From a virus, in the IMG/VR virus record IMGVR_UViG_3300020060_000010, positions 19,546-83,545 of that record: a stretch of DNA of 64,000 nt; one strand, 5' to 3'. The stretch's first letter is position 1. Every line of letters begins with the position of its first letter. Shown here in pieces: positions 19,187 to 48,783 of the stretch. A program made the position numbers and the translations under genes. The notes under the pieces were generated by a model. The model had not been told where the DNA came from. It made no database searches and worked only from the letters and a program-made list of their open reading frames with translations.

Positions 19187-19604
19187 TGTTGTTCTCCTTC
19201 GTTAGTTCTACTGACTTGCCGGAATTAAGGTCACGTTCTAGCTCGCGGCTCAACATGGTGCTGGTGTACTCATAATCCAGATAGTTAGCAGCCTGTGCAG
19301 CGCTAGCGGAGACCAGAGGATCATGGTTCGCCGTGATACGCGAGTAGCTCCGAGCAAGGTCCGCCTCTTCCTTGAGTGTGAGAGTCTTTGATAGCCCGCG
19401 TGCAGGGGTTAGACGATTGTAGATGCGCTCTCCGTAGAACATTAGCAGCAACGCCCACAGTAGTGTGCTGCCGATGTCTCCAGTGCCGATCCAAACTGCC
19501 AGGTTTACACCGAACACGACATTAGAAATAGCAATGAGAATCAGAAGGAACAATCCTCCAATGTCTCGTACTGCTTCCTTGATCCATTCCCAGTTCTCTC
19601 TCAT
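19179..19604 (-). CDS. two-span membrane protein, 141 aa
   Basis: Hydrophobic segments at about 16-38 and 47-61 and a charged, helical cytoplasmic tail with a polar repeat (ANHDPLVSASAAQAANYL). Coupled upstream by ATGA. Confidence 0.78.
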   Translation of the reverse strand: MRENWEWIKEAVRDIGGLFLLILIAISNVVFGVNLAVWIGTGDIGSTLLWALLLMFYGERIYNRLTPARGLSKTLTLKEEADLARSYSRITANHDPLVSASAAQAANYLDYEYTSTMLSRELERDLNSGKSVELTKENNNG

Positions 19605-32432: not shown

Positions 32433-32462
32433 AATCTACCTGGGTCTGATCTAGCGTGTCAA
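32433..32462 (-). promoter_or_regulatory. promoter, TTGACA-N18-TAGATT
   Basis: Reads into the putative DNA-binding gene. A GGTCAG-N5-CTGACC palindrome (32405-32421) lies in the leader and could be an operator. Confidence 0.83.
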
Positions 32463-34070: not shown

Positions 34071-34099
34071 AACGTATCCTGTCTGCTGACCAGAGTCAA
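34071..34099 (-). promoter_or_regulatory. promoter, TTGACT-N17-TACGTT
   Basis: Serves the 80-aa gene at 33783-34025. Confidence 0.82.
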
Positions 34100-36005: not shown

Positions 36006-36037
36006 AGTTCTTACAAGCCAAACGAAAGGGCAAGACA

Positions 36038-37018: not shown

Positions 37019-37047
37019 TTGACGGCACCGAAAGACTAGAGTAGGTT
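37019..37047 (+). promoter_or_regulatory. promoter, TTGACG-N17-TAGGTT
   Basis: Drives 37088-37342. Confidence 0.83.
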
Positions 37048-37087
37048 AGTACTTAGAGGGAGAGAGACTCCCAAACGAGAGGAAACC

Positions 37088-39130: not shown

Positions 39131-39159
39131 TTGACACTGAGCCCGGACTCACGTAAGTT
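39131..39159 (+). promoter_or_regulatory. promoter, TTGACA-N17-TAAGTT
   Basis: Drives 39203-39677. Confidence 0.85.
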
Positions 39160-39202
39160 TTGTCTTAGCGGGAGAGATAGTCTCTCCGGCAGAGAGGTAG
39201 AA

Positions 39203-39720: not shown

Positions 39721-39749
39721 TTGACACGGCAGGCAGGGACCGGTAATGT
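39721..39749 (+). promoter_or_regulatory. promoter, TTGACA-N17-TAATGT
   Basis: Starts the last cassette, a structured RNA with a Cys-containing mini-ORF. Confidence 0.83.
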
Positions 39750-39754
39750 TTGCC

Positions 39755-39910
39755 TTGCGGGGATGAAAACTTAACAGAGAGTCGGCCAAGAGAATACGGC
39801 GACAGACCCGAAAGGGCTCACGTCGATAGGGTGTCAGCGACAGATACTAAATCCGGCAGACCCGGTACCCGTCAAACCATGGTAGTAACCACCGACTCTC
39901 TGTTAGATCT
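39755..39910 (+). ncRNA. candidate novel structured RNA closed by a 14-bp stem
   Basis: TAACAGAGAGTCGG (39772-39785) is perfectly complementary to CCGACTCTCTGTTA (39892-39905). The enclosed 106 bases hold further helices: CGAC/GTCG around CCC-GAAA-GGG, TGTC-AGC-GACA, CCGG-N5-CCGG and TACC/GGTA, forming a multi-branch junction. It follows a promoter and precedes a 27-codon gene and a strong terminator, so it may be a riboregulator or an independent RNA. No known family was recognised. Confidence 0.6.
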
Positions 39911-39943
39911 TCACTCTCGACCGAACCGACGAAAGGCAAGACA

Positions 39944-40027
39944 ATGGCTGCACCTGCTACTTGTTCGGGAAACGGAACGTGTGACCCGCGCATCCCTCAC
40001 ATTTGTTACAAGGGAACCAAAGCCTGA
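39944..40027 (+). CDS. 27-aa peptide with three cysteines
   Basis: ACGAAAGGCAAGACA before the ATG is the same leader used by longer cassette genes. Cysteines at 7, 13 and 21 in MAAPATCSGNGTC...HICYKG. Could be a metal-binding or redox mini-protein; alternatively a leader peptide of the structured RNA unit. Confidence 0.55.
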   Translation: MAAPATCSGNGTCDPRIPHICYKGTKA

Positions 40028-40048
40028 CAGACCAGCAAGACAGGATGG

Positions 40049-40070
40049 CCCCGCTACGGCGGGGTTTTCT
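40049..40070 (+). terminator. strong rho-independent terminator
   Basis: CCCCGC-TACG-GCGGGG with TTTTCTTG after it. Ends the plus-strand cassette array. Confidence 0.95.
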
Positions 40071-40395
40071 TGCGTCCTGGCGCGCGTCTCTGACCTTGGC
40101 ATGTCTGACCTGGACTGATGTACGGGAAGAGTCCTGAGCGGGCCGTGGCGGGCTGGCTACCCTCCGGCAGGGAGGGTCGGGCGTGAGCTTGCGAGCGACC
40201 GGGGTGGGTTGGGAGAGTCATCCCAAAGGATGGTCACTCAGTAGTATGAAGTATGTGATAAGGGATTGATGGTAGACAGATAGGTAGAACAAATGATAGG
40301 TTGGAAGGGATGAGTAAGAATAAACGTGCAACCAAGAGTTGCGCTTAGGGTTCAAACCAACATATTGAAGGATATCGATTTGAAAGGTGGTGATA
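40071..40395 (+). other. gene-poor stretch after the cassette array
   Basis: About 325 bases with a GC-rich first half (hairpin ACCCTCC/GGAGGGT near 40160) and an AT-richer second half. No ORF above 25 codons with a ribosome-binding site. A GCAAC/GTTGC hairpin and GGTTCAAACC near 40330-40352 recall tRNA parts but no tRNA can be folded. Confidence 0.45.
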
Positions 40396-40668
40396 ATGAT
40401 GGTCGAAAGGGTCATCAAACTTAGACATTCTCTCGCATTCCACGCGCGTAAAGGCGCTGAATTGTTCCCTGACGACGTGCCTACGGGGAAACGGATATGC
40501 AAAGGCAAATGTGGTCTAGCCCTGCCTACGGGGAAGTTCTATACGTGGAAAGACCAGAGAGATAACCGCACCTATACCCGTACAGAATGCAAAGACTGTC
40601 ACCTAGATAAGACCAATGAAGCGAGACGTAATAGGAAAGGCAAAGGGGTGCCTACGGGGACAGAATAG
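40396..40668 (+). CDS. zinc-ribbon/HNH-like protein, 90 aa
   Basis: KRICKGKCGLALPTGKFYTW then CKDCHLDKTNEARR: a pair of CxxxC and CxxC knuckles as in the N-terminal zinc half of many phage HNH proteins, but no downstream catalytic His-Asn-His. AAAGG lies eight bases before ATG 40396. Three of its (V/L)-P-T-G tetrapeptides are encoded by the repeated decamer GCCTACGGGG. Confidence 0.65.
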   Translation: MMVERVIKLRHSLAFHARKGAELFPDDVPTGKRICKGKCGLALPTGKFYTWKDQRDNRTYTRTECKDCHLDKTNEARRNRKGKGVPTGTE

Positions 40669-40781
40669 AACTCTCTCCGCATGCCTACGGGGATTGATAT
40701 GGGTATGCCTACGGGGAATGGGAAAGGCTATTCAATGCACTCTATTGACCCGCCTATTCATGTCCACGCATGCCTACGGGG
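40478..40781. repeat. six copies of TGCCTACGGGG (iteron-like)
   Basis: Copies start at 40478, 40523, 40649, 40682, 40706 and 40771, all in the same orientation; the first five extend to TGCCTACGGGGA. Spacing is irregular (45, 126, 33, 24, 65). Three lie in the 90-aa gene and three beyond its stop, so coding constraint does not explain them. Confidence 0.85.
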
Positions 40782-41012
40782 CGGCATCCATATCAAGGGC
40801 TAGATGCCTCTATGCGGGACCAGTAGACAGCTACCCATACAGACACACCATGGCAGGGGTCAACGCTCTCTAGGGTGGCACACAGGGGCAGGGAGGAGTG
40901 GTGCTGCTGTGAGTGCAGGCGCTGTAGGGGCACGTGTAGGGCGTCCAGTGGCGTTAGGTAGCCTAGCTATGTGGTTTGATGTCGAGTTCGAGTTGTAGGC
41001 GGGGTGGAGGGG
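40669..41012 (+). other. repeat-bearing stretch without a convincing gene
   Basis: Holds the last three decamer copies and a G-rich segment. A 40-codon frame at 40681-40803 begins with the repeat itself (MPTGIDMGMPTG) but lacks a ribosome-binding site. GGTGGAGGGG ends the stretch just before the next ORF. Confidence 0.4.
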
Positions 41013-41258
41013 ATGGGGCGCGTTAGATACACCCCCAGCGAAACAGAGGCTGGCCCTCCCTCTTTTCGTAAATGGGCGTATTCCGTGGACACCGGAATGT
41101 CAAAAGTGTACCGAAAGTGGTACGGTTTTGACACGAGAAAATCCCCAAGTCGGAATAAGAGGCTGGCTATTCCGAGTTATCATTTAACGAGCTTGTCATC
41201 TATTAAAGGATATGACAAGTTGAAGCAAGTTATTTGTCACTTCCGCTCGACATGGTAA
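41013..41258 (+). CDS. possible basic protein, 81 aa
   Basis: GTGGAGGGG lies before ATG 41013. Basic and aromatic (FRKWAYSVDTGMSKVYRKWYG). It contains a GTACC/GGTAC hairpin in its coding sequence. Codon use looks less regular than the neighbours, so it may not be real. Confidence 0.35.
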   Translation: MGRVRYTPSETEAGPPSFRKWAYSVDTGMSKVYRKWYGFDTRKSPSRNKRLAIPSYHLTSLSSIKGYDKLKQVICHFRSTW

Positions 41259-41399
41259 ATATCCGAGGATAATCTTCTATGTTTTAGTGATATCATAGTT
41301 CACAATAAGGGCCAGTTCATTATTTTTATAAACAGTCTTAAGTTGAACGTAGCCATGTTTCTCGAACTGACCTGTTTCTTCTCTGAGGAAACGGAGAAA
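41259..41399. other. non-coding stretch downstream of minus-strand terminator
   Basis: About 140 AT-rich bases with no supported gene. Confidence 0.4.
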
Positions 41400-41432
41400 C
41401 AAGAAAACCCCGCCGGATCTACCGGAACGGGG
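41400..41432 (-). terminator. strong rho-independent terminator
   Basis: On the minus strand, CCCCG-TT-CCGG / CCGG-C-GGGG with a five-base loop, then TTTTCTTG. Ends the minus-strand block that contains the GlpQ-like gene. Confidence 0.9.
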
Positions 41433-42800: not shown

Positions 42801-42910
42801 TTGTAAGCCCCAATCTCCTCTAGTTGTCGGACTACGATCTTGTACTCTCTAGCGAACTCTGAACTCTTCATATCTTTTTCGAAGTCGCGCCAGTACACAC
42901 TGTCTCTCAC
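42716..42910 (-). CDS. hypothetical protein, 64 aa, GTG start
   Basis: First 35 residues helical (SSEFAREYKIVVRQLEEIG); the last 29 are read through the start of the membrane gene in another frame. GTG overlaps the phosphodiesterase stop (GTGA). Confidence 0.6.
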   Translation of the reverse strand: MRDSVYWRDFEKDMKSSEFAREYKIVVRQLEEIGAYKWYGLWYWLRSASLAFGSQVRRMRGAGL

Positions 42911-44238
42911 GATACGCTGACTCCAGAAACGAATCCGCTTGTACCGTTCGCTGCCAGTGCGAAGAACTGGTCTCCGCCGTACGTACCTGACGCTACCACA
43001 AGTTTGGTACCACTGGCAAGGTCTGTGGCGGTAAAAGTATTGCCAACTCGCTTGAACTCTACCTTGCGACGTCCACCAGATCCGACAGGAGTAGTCTCGA
43101 TTGACCCGAGCAGGAGTGGAGCACCATTGTCGTTGCGGTAGATAGACATCTGCCCATTGCGGCGCCAGAGGACTCCGTAGCCGTACTGCTGGGACACAGT
43201 TGGACTGCTCTCGTCTCGCCAGACAGCATCCGGGCCAACGACTGCCTTGCCCTTGCCACAGCCTACAAACATGCCGAGCCAGCGAGTATCACTTGAACAG
43301 TTGCTGCCGTAGTCGAATGTTGCACGGATCTTGAAGTCGCCGTTGATGACCCCAGCCCATGTCTGGGTGAGTGAGCGGGTGCGAGAACCGACTGGGTTAC
43401 GCTTGACGGAAATCTTTCCGCGAGCCGCGTCCTGGAAGCTCCAGAGACGACCTGTGTTACCGTCCGCCACGTCTGCAGCGGTGACTCCTTCTTGCCAACC
43501 AGGGTAAGCGAAGCGCTTGGCATACGGATCGGCGGTCAATTTACGGCTCTGGCCGGAAACATACCACGGATCGTCAGAAATGAGACCGACTGCGCCTCTG
43601 TCATGGTCAAAATCGCCTTGGATCGGATCTTCGACAGTCCAGGTTGCCATCTTAAGGCCTGCAGCCTTGAAAGCATCGAAAGAAGACTGTGCTGTACCAC
43701 GCGAGATACCAATGTACTCGATACCGGCCGCCTTGATCTGTGCAGGCGTTTGAGCAACTGAACCCTGTACGAGGTACAAAGAGACCAAACCGGCGTCCGC
43801 GATGAGTGCGGCACTGTTATAGTCAAAGGAACTCAGGATAATGGAGCCCTGTAGCCCACGTGCGTTAATGGTCTCAATGATTTCTGCAGCCTCAGAGGCG
43901 TTCTTGGCCTCGACCAGCAGTGTTCGGCCTCCGAATTCGTCCAAAACCTCATCCCACAGGAGAGGAGTGCCGTAGTCGCCACCAGGAATTGGATTCTTGA
44001 CCTTGCCGCGCTTGAACTGGGCGCTGGTGAGGCTACTGACTGCACCAGTCACGCCAATCATGGTCCGGGTGACTGTTTCGTCGTGGATAACGGCGAACTT
44101 GCCGTCTGCTAGCTTACGCAGGTCAATTTCTGGTAGATACCCTGAGTTGGATGTTGCCTTGTAACCTTCTAGACAGTGTTCCGGGTAGATATTGGCTCCA
44201 CCTCTGTGTCCTGCGATCCATGGTGTCTTGATAGTCAT
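42907..44238 (-). CDS. glycerophosphodiester phosphodiesterase (GlpQ-like), 443 aa
   Basis: Catalytic domain in residues 1-255: HRGG (11-14), Y-P-E-H (17-20), E-I-D-L, VIHDETVTRT and LLVEAKNAS, the classical order, though the usual E-N after HRG is E-H here. It hydrolyses glycerophosphodiesters; bacterial GlpQ is an exo-hydrolase of glycerol-phosphate teichoic acid. C-terminal residues 260-443 form a beta-rich, possibly sugar-binding domain (DFKIRATFDYGSN; YGYGVLWRRNGQMS). No signal peptide from ATG 44238, which has AGGAAGCCA upstream. Likely virion-associated or released at lysis. Confidence 0.9.
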   Translation of the reverse strand: MTIKTPWIAGHRGGANIYPEHCLEGYKATSNSGYLPEIDLRKLADGKFAVIHDETVTRTMIGVTGAVSSLTSAQFKRGKVKNPIPGGDYGTPLLWDEVLDEFGGRTLLVEAKNASEAAEIIETINARGLQGSIILSSFDYNSAALIADAGLVSLYLVQGSVAQTPAQIKAAGIEYIGISRGTAQSSFDAFKAAGLKMATWTVEDPIQGDFDHDRGAVGLISDDPWYVSGQSRKLTADPYAKRFAYPGWQEGVTAADVADGNTGRLWSFQDAARGKISVKRNPVGSRTRSLTQTWAGVINGDFKIRATFDYGSNCSSDTRWLGMFVGCGKGKAVVGPDAVWRDESSPTVSQQYGYGVLWRRNGQMSIYRNDNGAPLLLGSIETTPVGSGGRRKVEFKRVGNTFTATDLASGTKLVVASGTYGGDQFFALAANGTSGFVSGVSVS

Positions 44239-44257
44239 TGGCTTCCTAGGTGTTGCG

Positions 44258-44539
44258 TTAGATGATGTAAGTGGTTCCAGGGGTCCAGAGGACAGCCAAA
44301 GGCCGCCTAGCAAAAAACCACTGAACGTTCGCCTGCTTAAGAATGACTGCTGGTTCAAGTAACTCCTCCTCCATGTCTAGTAGTGGCTTGGCCACAGTGT
44401 TAGCCCAGTAATCTACGTCATGCCACAGAGACCAGGTGTAGCCGATGTTGTCTCTCACAACTGCGTTGTCGCGCATGCCAGTAATCTTAGCTAGTAGAGC
44501 CAACCAGTCAGTCTCTTCGATTGCAAGATCAATGTTCAT
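44258..44539 (-). CDS. hypothetical protein, 93 aa, probably leaderless
   Basis: TATAAT six bases before the ATG and no ribosome-binding site. Trp-rich, mostly helical (TDWLALLAKITGM; YTWSLWHDVDYW). Precedes the phosphodiesterase gene, perhaps its partner. Confidence 0.75.
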   Translation of the reverse strand: MNIDLAIEETDWLALLAKITGMRDNAVVRDNIGYTWSLWHDVDYWANTVAKPLLDMEEELLEPAVILKQANVQWFFARRPLAVLWTPGTTYII

Positions 44540-46135: not shown

Positions 46136-46304
46136 TCGCATGGTTGTTCCAGGCTGGCTTACGTTTGACTTGGCCGTAGAAGCCTGGAATAAACATACTG
46201 AAGGTATTCCTTATGTCAAGTACCTTCTTGAGAAGTACAAGAAGTTCACACTGATTGCCGACAAGAAACCAGAGCCGGAAGCCAAACCGAATGACACAGA
46301 CTGA
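46101..46304 (+). CDS. hypothetical protein, 67 aa
   Basis: AAAGGAGATTACAG ideally precedes ATG 46101, inside the small terminase gene by 35 bases. Helical, basic (VKYLLEKYKKFTLIADKK). Located between the two terminase genes. Confidence 0.75.
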   Translation: MELTKNLTTKTDRMVVPGWLTFDLAVEAWNKHTEGIPYVKYLLEKYKKFTLIADKKPEPEAKPNDTD

Positions 46305-48783
46305 ACAAGAGTACGCAGAGCAGCTACATGCCCTGCTCCAGCCGAGAATCCTTGATGAATACGCAGTACACGTACCACACCCTGCCCAACAGGTAGCTCT
46401 TGCCCTCCCGGCGAAGGAGATGCTGTTTGGTGGTGCTGCTGGTGGTGGAAAGGCCCTGGCCTTGGATACACCTATTCGCACACCACTTGGCTGGACCACC
46501 ATGAGTGATCTACCTATCGGTGCGCTGGTTTATGACGAAAATGGAGAGCCTTGTAAGGTTGTCTGGAAGTCGGAGGTCCAAGAAGGCCGTCCGTGCTATC
46601 GAGTTCAGTTTTCTGACGGATCAGAAATTGTAGCCGACCAGGATCACAAATGGTCTGTTGGGTTAGCAGGCAGCCGAAATCAGAGCCAACACATCAAGAC
46701 TACTGGCGAAATGTTTCGCACTATGGAAACAGCCAAGAGGGTCAAATTCTATATCGACGTAGCCCGCCCGCTTTTCCAGTTCAAGGAAGAATACCCAATT
46801 GATCCGTATATCATGGGCTATTGGCTTGGTGACGGGGATACCAGACGAGGCTATGTGACAATTGGTGATTCAGATTTCGAATCAGTCTCGGCACTGTTTG
46901 AAGCTTGTGGTGAAACTCTTACCAAGCTCGCGCCTATGCATTACAAGGTCGAAGGCTTGACCAAGCGTCTAATTTCTCTTGGTATCGTTGGACCGCAGGC
47001 TGTTGACGGAGTCAAGATGACACCGCGACCAAAGCGCATTCCCCGTCAGTATATCGAAGAAGGCAACATTGAGCAGAGACTCGCACTGCTCCAGGGCTTG
47101 GTTGATAGTGACGGATTTGTAGACTCGGACATTGAACTAACAACAGTCAGCGCCGAATTGGCTAAAGACTATCTCGAACTAATTTTATCTCTCGGTATCA
47201 AGGCGACGATTCGTGAAGGTGTCGCAACTTTGAATGGCCGGATCATCGGCCCAAAGTATCGAATCAAGTTTGTTACCGATATGGAAAGCGCTCGACTACC
47301 GCGCAAGCTGGCTCGCCAAAAAGTTGACGGATTTAGAGGCACACACAACAAGCGATACATTACTGCCATTATCGCTACAGAATCCGTACCAGTACAGTGT
47401 ATCGGTGTAGACTCGCCAAGTCACTTGTATCTCGCTGGACGCGAATTAATTCCGACCCACAACAGCGACTTCCTCCTGATGGCTGCTCTCCGCTACGTGG
47501 ACGTGCCTGGATACTCTGCCATTCTGTTCCGTCGTACGTACAAGCAGCTTATCGAATCAGGCGCTATCCTTGACCGTTTCAAGTCTTGGATGGCTGGCAA
47601 GAACGTGAAAAAGGAAGAGCGAGGCATGACCTGGGTCTTCCCTTCCGGCGCCAAGATTCGCTTTGGACACATTCACCGTGAAGCCGACAAGTACAACTAC
47701 CAAGGTGCTGAATTCCAGTTCATCGGATTCGATGAGGCCACGATGTTCGAGCCTGACATCTACACTTGGGCATTCTCTCGTCTCCGTAAGCCAACTGTGT
47801 CGTGCAACTACTGCTCGTTGCCTCTGACCGGCGCTAAGAATGGCTTCATCCATCTGGCTAGCCAGAAGGAAGCCTGCAATACACCCATGCCGGATGAGCG
47901 AGTGTTGAACCAGTACTCTCCTGCCGAGCGCGACGGAATGACTGTCTTCGACCTGCCACTACAGGTCATCGCTACCGCCAACCCTGGTGGTCTATCTCAT
48001 GAGTTCTTCAAGGAACGCTTCGTAGACCCAGCAGACCCAGACCTTCACGATGAAGAGGAAATGGCCGCGCGCAAGCAGCGCGCCTATATTCCTTCGACCA
48101 TTCGTGACAACCCTTCTCTTAACCAGGAAGAGTACATGGCTACTCTTCAGAACCTATCAATGGTTGACCGTGAGCGCTACCTGAACGGTGACTGGGAGAT
48201 CCTGGAAGAAGGCAATCTGTTCAAGGCCAGCGACTTCCAGTATGTGGAGCGAGGTCCAAGTCCGGATGACGTTAAGTCTCGTGTGCGATTCTGGGACTTC
48301 GCGGCGTCCGATGGTCAGCACTCTGACTGGACAGCCGGAGCACTCTGCTCTATCACCAAAGACGGCCGATGGTTCATTGAGGACATGAAGCGGGTCCGCG
48401 CACTACCTCCAGACGTGGAGAAGCTGGTCAAGAAGACAGCACAAGAAGATGGTATCGGAGTCCGCGTCTATTCCGAGCAGGAGCCTGGCTCGTCCGGTAA
48501 GGCTCTCGTATCTTACTACAAGCGTCACGTTCTCGCTGGCTGGAGATACGACGGAGTCCGCAGTACCGGCAGTAAGACTGACCGCGCTGGCTCCCTCGTC
48601 TCACAGACCGAAGGAAAGAATGTCTACCTCGTCAAGGCATCTTGGAACAAGGCTTTCACTACCGAAGCGAGCCTGTTCCCGGTCGGCGCACACGACGACC
48701 AGGTGGACGCTGCAGCGGGTGCATTTGTAGCAATGACAGTGAACGCAAAAAGAAAAGTGCGACTTGTTACCAGATACAACTAA
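46291..48783 (+). CDS. terL: large terminase subunit with intein, 830 aa
   Basis: Packaging motor ATPase/nuclease. Walker A FGGAAGGGK at residues 46-54 is split by an intein inserted right after the lysine; the C-extein resumes SDFLLMAAL at 392. Walker B FIGFDEATMF near 478. RNase H-like nuclease: FWDFAASDGQHSDW near 666, YSEQEPG near 730 and DDQVDAAAG near 802. Mature extein is about 493 residues, normal for the family. ATG 46291 overlaps the upstream gene by 14 bases. Confidence 0.95.
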   Translation: MTQTEQEYAEQLHALLQPRILDEYAVHVPHPAQQVALALPAKEMLFGGAAGGGKALALDTPIRTPLGWTTMSDLPIGALVYDENGEPCKVVWKSEVQEGRPCYRVQFSDGSEIVADQDHKWSVGLAGSRNQSQHIKTTGEMFRTMETAKRVKFYIDVARPLFQFKEEYPIDPYIMGYWLGDGDTRRGYVTIGDSDFESVSALFEACGETLTKLAPMHYKVEGLTKRLISLGIVGPQAVDGVKMTPRPKRIPRQYIEEGNIEQRLALLQGLVDSDGFVDSDIELTTVSAELAKDYLELILSLGIKATIREGVATLNGRIIGPKYRIKFVTDMESARLPRKLARQKVDGFRGTHNKRYITAIIATESVPVQCIGVDSPSHLYLAGRELIPTHNSDFLLMAALRYVDVPGYSAILFRRTYKQLIESGAILDRFKSWMAGKNVKKEERGMTWVFPSGAKIRFGHIHREADKYNYQGAEFQFIGFDEATMFEPDIYTWAFSRLRKPTVSCNYCSLPLTGAKNGFIHLASQKEACNTPMPDERVLNQYSPAERDGMTVFDLPLQVIATANPGGLSHEFFKERFVDPADPDLHDEEEMAARKQRAYIPSTIRDNPSLNQEEYMATLQNLSMVDRERYLNGDWEILEEGNLFKASDFQYVERGPSPDDVKSRVRFWDFAASDGQHSDWTAGALCSITKDGRWFIEDMKRVRALPPDVEKLVKKTAQEDGIGVRVYSEQEPGSSGKALVSYYKRHVLAGWRYDGVRSTGSKTDRAGSLVSQTEGKNVYLVKASWNKAFTTEASLFPVGAHDDQVDAAAGAFVAMTVNAKRKVRLVTRYN
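46453..47463 (+). mobile_element. intein with LAGLIDADG endonuclease in TerL, 337 aa
   Basis: Begins with alanine (ALALDTPIRTPLGW) in place of the usual Cys or Ser, and ends LIPTHN followed by extein Ser. Splicing block features are present: D-T-x-I-x-T-P near the start, H-L-Y-L-A near the end. Two LAGLIDADG helices at IMGYWLGDGDT and LLQGLVDSDGFV indicate an intact homing endonuclease. Insertion exactly in the P-loop means terminase is inactive until splicing. Confidence 0.93.

Follow-up and report, generated by a model that had tools for sequence, protein, structure and literature searches.

The unit analysed here is best read as a stable, structured 5′ leader, or a small RNA derived from such a leader, on an early-type mini-gene of a phage; we put the probability of this reading at about 0.5, its transcription, timing, stability and function being predicted from the letters of the DNA. 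The early-type monocistronic unit would yield a transcript of ~318 nt (~39756 to 40073). Its 5′ domain, beginning 15 nt past the predicted start, would be 136 nt of RNA held closed by a 15-bp stem, followed by a 27-codon peptide gene and the terminator of the gene block. The stem would render this domain stable and exonuclease-resistant, and the domain would either persist as a small RNA or protect and insulate the mini-gene mRNA during infection. Because the stem lies near the 5′ end and no terminator stands between it and the ORF, a stable 5′ domain is the simplest reading. Coordinates refer to the window, the whole stretch of 64,000 nt analysed, which corresponds to positions 19546–83545 of an 83.5-kb IMG/VR virus record. 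The features of the unit are as follows.

39721..39749 (+), sigma70-like promoter TTGACA-N17-TAATGT, of the phage's own promoter series; predicted start ~39756
39771..39785 (+), left arm of the closing stem; 14 Watson–Crick pairs and one U-G
39797..39825 (+), inner hairpin with GAAA tetraloop; pair probability 0.78–1.0, the best-supported inner helix
39830..39848 (+), weak inner hairpin; pair probability 0.51–0.57
39853..39865 (+), weak inner hairpin; pair probability 0.60–0.62
39880..39891 (+), weak inner hairpin; pair probability 0.44–0.58
39892..39906 (+), right arm of the closing stem, pairing with 39771..39785
39930..39946 (+), ribosome-binding site and start CGAAAGGCAAGACAATG; start context common to the genes at 36023 and 37836
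39944..40027 (+), 27-codon ORF MAAPATCSGNGTCDPRIPHICYKGTKA with three Cys, C-x5-C-x5-H-x-C (translation)
40047..40071 (+), intrinsic terminator with UACG tetraloop, also closing the rightward gene block

The arms TAACAGAGAGTCGG and CCGACTCTCTGTTA are exactly complementary at 39772–39785 and 39892–39905, just where the first-pass annotation had placed a perfect 14-bp stem, and a U-G pair (39771/39906) lengthens the stem to 15 bp. The promoter, the three-cysteine ORF with a good ribosome-binding site (GAAAGG, 7 nt 5′ of the start) and the very strong terminator (40049–40071) named in that annotation were likewise found. In the full transcript, the pair probability of the closing stem was 0.93–1.0, and 0.68 for the outer U-G pair. 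The whole window was searched for perfect inverted repeats of at least 14 bp with arms no more than 300 nt apart, and this stem was the only one; dinucleotide shuffles of the whole 64-kb window gave 0.05 such repeats spanning at most 140 nt per window. A meaningless 14-bp inverted repeat beside a short ORF, an account that the low but finite chance rate, the neutral codon usage of the ORF and the lack of relatives in the collections searched would permit, is considered unlikely, since the leader that contains the stem is the only outsized one in the block, and the stem is flanked there by a promoter and a gene start both typical of this phage.

The RNA from 39765 to 39912 has a folding energy of −50.6 kcal/mol (z = −4.2), equalled by 0 of 200 shuffles. 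The enclosed 106 nt folded by themselves are ordinary (z = −0.3 on the + strand and +0.1 on the − strand), and the folding excess of the whole RNA is entirely due to the closing stem. Of at least four further helices proposed earlier for the interior, the hairpin at 39797–39825 is well supported and the other three reach pair probabilities of just 0.44–0.62, and the description of the RNA as multi-branched thus stands as a structure prediction with an interior at z ~ −0.3. RNA from the minus strand was rejected as a candidate: it contains the same stem, but its interior is at chance level and no promoter of the phage type precedes it.

The unit is the last in a run of small genes, most of which have their own promoter. 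The + strand from 34.1 to 39.8 kb contains fourteen sites matching TTGAC-N17-19-TANNNT, where ~0.3 are expected by simple base counting. The −10 element of the unit, TAATGT, is weak, yet resembles those of the sister promoters. The distance from −35 to ATG is 61–72 nt in nine sister units vs 223 nt in the stem-bearing unit; the 136-nt stem-closed element makes up nearly all of the extra length, and without it the −35-to-ATG distance would be ~87 nt, close to the sisters. Several sister leaders open with a small hairpin, only a few nucleotides from where transcription is predicted to begin, and most other leaders are without one. The sister features are given below.

39131..39202 (+), promoter and leader; the predicted start is closely followed by hairpin GGAGAGA-TAG-TCTCTCC
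37019..37087 (+), promoter and leader with hairpin GGGAG-AGAGA-CTCCC
Unit at 32462 (−), leader hairpin GGTCAG-AGAGA-CTGACC
Unit at 34099 (−), leader hairpin CCCGC...GCGGG

The 9-mer AGAGAGACT has only three copies in the 83.5-kb record, at 37061 (+), 32417 (−) and 29549 (−), the last preceding a DUF3631 gene. Every copy makes up the tip of a hairpin, with an AGAGA loop and AG/CT closure, in a leader near a promoter-like site, and AGAGAGACT is possibly a shared leader element of this phage. The stem of the unit is placed like the sister hairpins, 15 nt past the predicted start, and has similar letters (CAGAGAG/CTCTCTG); because of this shared place and composition, the element could be an oversized form of the phage's habitual leader hairpins.

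Stable hairpins that stabilise the 5′ end occur in the leaders of bacterial and phage mRNAs, for example in ompA-type leaders, and the unit likewise carries a stable stem near the 5′ end of its transcript. The stem could accordingly be no more than a larger version of the phage's 5′ leader hairpins, stabilising the mRNA of the mini-gene around a looped-out 106 nt without function. The short hairpins at the same place in sister leaders and an interior no more structured than chance are consistent with this; a stabilising hairpin, however, needs no loop of 106 nt, the loops of the sister hairpins being 3–5 nt and those of ompA-type leaders small, and we regard such a plain leader as possible but rather less than probable.

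The near-normal length of the leader after excision of the element would also be expected of a DNA-level insertion, either a MITE-like one bounded by 14-bp terminal inverted repeats or one resembling an integron attC site. The R-box consensus of attC sites is RYYYAAC/GTTRRRY, and the outer ends of the unit, ACTTAAC (39769–39775) and GTTAGAT (39902–39908), fit both boxes. Unlike attC sites, however, the arms are perfectly paired with no extrahelical bases, no tyrosine-recombinase match (PF00589) was found across the whole record, no second site with these arms was found in the phage, and no second copy of the element in the phage, in IMG/VR or in 11.3 million genome contigs; nor was a clear target-site duplication seen. 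An element acting as DNA is therefore judged very unlikely.

The start of the mini-ORF is shared with other genes of the phage: the motif CGARAGG-N0-3-AAGACAATG has three occurrences in the window, all of them at starts of promoter-borne genes. This shared start context is the best evidence for the putative translation of the mini-ORF; its codon usage, which scores above 82% of random short ORFs, is neutral and uninformative, and the peptide matched no protein family. A type I toxin–antitoxin pair was rejected, as the peptide is polar rather than of the hydrophobic membrane type and no minus-strand promoter-like site of the phage type lies nearby. The position of the element in a 5′ leader and its stem-closed, multi-helix shape, which resembles many aptamers, would suit a cis-regulatory switch or attenuator acting on the mini-ORF. 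We hold this to be highly improbable: for a P1 helix that has to switch, the closing stem is very stable, the stem and ORF have no terminator between them, no Rfam match was obtained, and the ribosome-binding site is unpaired at 0.46 with the element and 0.50 on its removal, a hardly altered exposure that, within the limits of the thermodynamic model, speaks against a translational switch.

The terminator, CCCCGC-TACG-GCGGGG-TTTTCTT at 40049–40071, is the best formed of the terminator-like sites on the + strand between 33 and 46 kb. It was overlooked by a consensus terminator scanner, probably since the stem was allowed to run into the T run. With no further + strand gene of the block behind it, it is also the terminator of the entire rightward block. 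The earlier view of a self-contained unit holds for the promoter and ORF, which fit this phage's arrangement, a promoter for each small gene, and fails for the terminator, which is that of the block. Its tail, CGGCGGGGTTTTCTTG, also ends the facing leftward block on the minus strand at ~41.4 kb.

Between these facing terminators with their common tail lie ~1.3 kb (40072–41400) mostly devoid of convincing genes, a candidate origin or genome-end region. Six exact copies of TGCCTACGGGG lie within it on one strand in 304 nt (40478–40781). The sequence is absent elsewhere in the 83.5-kb record even at one mismatch, and window shuffles give 0.6. The first five copies share one reading frame; three lie inside a 93-aa ORF weakly like the zinc-finger parts of endonuclease VII, and two lie past its stop codon, reading ATG-CCT-ACG-GGG. 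No match to the repeats was found in phages and no closely paired copies in IMG/VR. Replication iterons are one possible identity, a short repeat that spreads another.

The window comes from an uncultured tailed phage which, by protein similarity, is distant kin of Gordonia and Brevibacterium phages. Its terminase shares 40–43% identity with the terminases of Gordonia phages GMA6 and Chidiebere and of Brevibacterium phage Cantare, the portal protein has the same kinship, and we infer from this kinship a host among the Actinobacteria. Megablast of 24 kb around the unit against 50,697 phage records gave no match. Only two IMG/VR fragments were closer by terminase or portal, L002 (99–100%) and L003 (72%), and both stop short of the stem-closed unit. 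In GMA6 and Cantare the terminase gene is at most 0.6 kb from the left genome end; in the window, the start of the terminase genes lies ~5.3 kb rightward of the unit. The large terminase (46255–48783) contains an intein-like insertion directly after GGAAGGGK, ending ...LIPTHNS, which is absent at the same place from L003. Just before the terminase region, 42907–44358 (−) encodes a glycerophosphodiester phosphodiesterase domain protein (PF03009, E = 1e−15) that also resembles tail-fibre family phrog_16641.

Phages and plasmids searched by blastn with the unit gave no homologue, and neither did tblastn of the mini-peptide or of 1028 aa of neighbouring early proteins, pattern searches of IMG/VR (degenerate mini-ORF, stem arms and repeat), or searches of IMG/VR and GTDB genomes anchored on the terminase and portal; an SprT anchor match proved to be an unrelated contig. 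The start-context pattern hit 58 loci in IMG/VR, none related to the unit. A covariance model (R1), built from the single sequence and able to find close relatives only, gave no homologue in the window, the rest of the record, the terminase-anchored loci, 48 whole records or 58 further loci. The sole stem-arm match in the 11.3 million genome contigs (L094), where ~7 were expected by chance by base counting, was rejected as a dioxygenase-like coding region with only the arms in common. Antisense matches of at least 12 nt in the phage's own genome were confined to start contexts shared between genes, the tail of the terminator and a single isolated 12-mer. The window was scanned with the Rfam 15 covariance models with 0 matches at the gathering threshold, in agreement with the first reading that no known RNA family is present; a relaxed search gave nothing meaningful, its RsmY hit over the ORF and terminator (20.1 bits vs 57 required) being far below threshold. 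The parts of the proposed novel structured RNA are thus real and outside Rfam, but the novel-RNA reading is only partly supported, because the sequence is an orphan offering no covariation criterion and its interior has no excess structure; the class is unproven.

Early small RNAs are encoded at the right ends of mycobacteriophages L5, D29 and StarStuff (PMC5712189), and non-coding RNAs are reported for Rhodococcus phage WC1 (PMC10986025). Like these, the unit would give a short transcript from an early promoter (predicted in the window) of an Actinobacteria phage (by kinship only), has no ORF above ~30 codons, and lies at the end of a block of small genes. The L5 and D29 right-end RNAs are ~500 nt, processed to 100–400 nt, and abundant (PMC5712189). 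R1 gave no match at the D29 right end, which has just one candidate 9-bp long-range stem, and there is no similarity in sequence or structure. The stronger proposal is that the unit represents a new class of phage small RNA, closed by a stem and transcribed together with the gene of a zinc-knuckle-like mini-peptide (C-x5-C-x5-H-x-C). Expressed early and directed at the host, it would be an independent analogue of the toxic RNAs from mycobacteriophage right ends; this is regarded as unlikely. HK022 put (PMC9378689) is a structured RNA in an early phage leader that suppresses downstream pausing and termination; the unit would resemble put as a structured RNA in an early-type phage leader, and differs from it in being ended by a strong terminator.

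Most genes of one block in this phage have their own promoter, and several of the leaders open with a small hairpin, a layout that permits gene-by-gene comparison of leader RNA structure. Should the RNA prove real and stable, the early small RNAs of Actinobacteria phages, a little-understood group, would gain an unrelated lineage.
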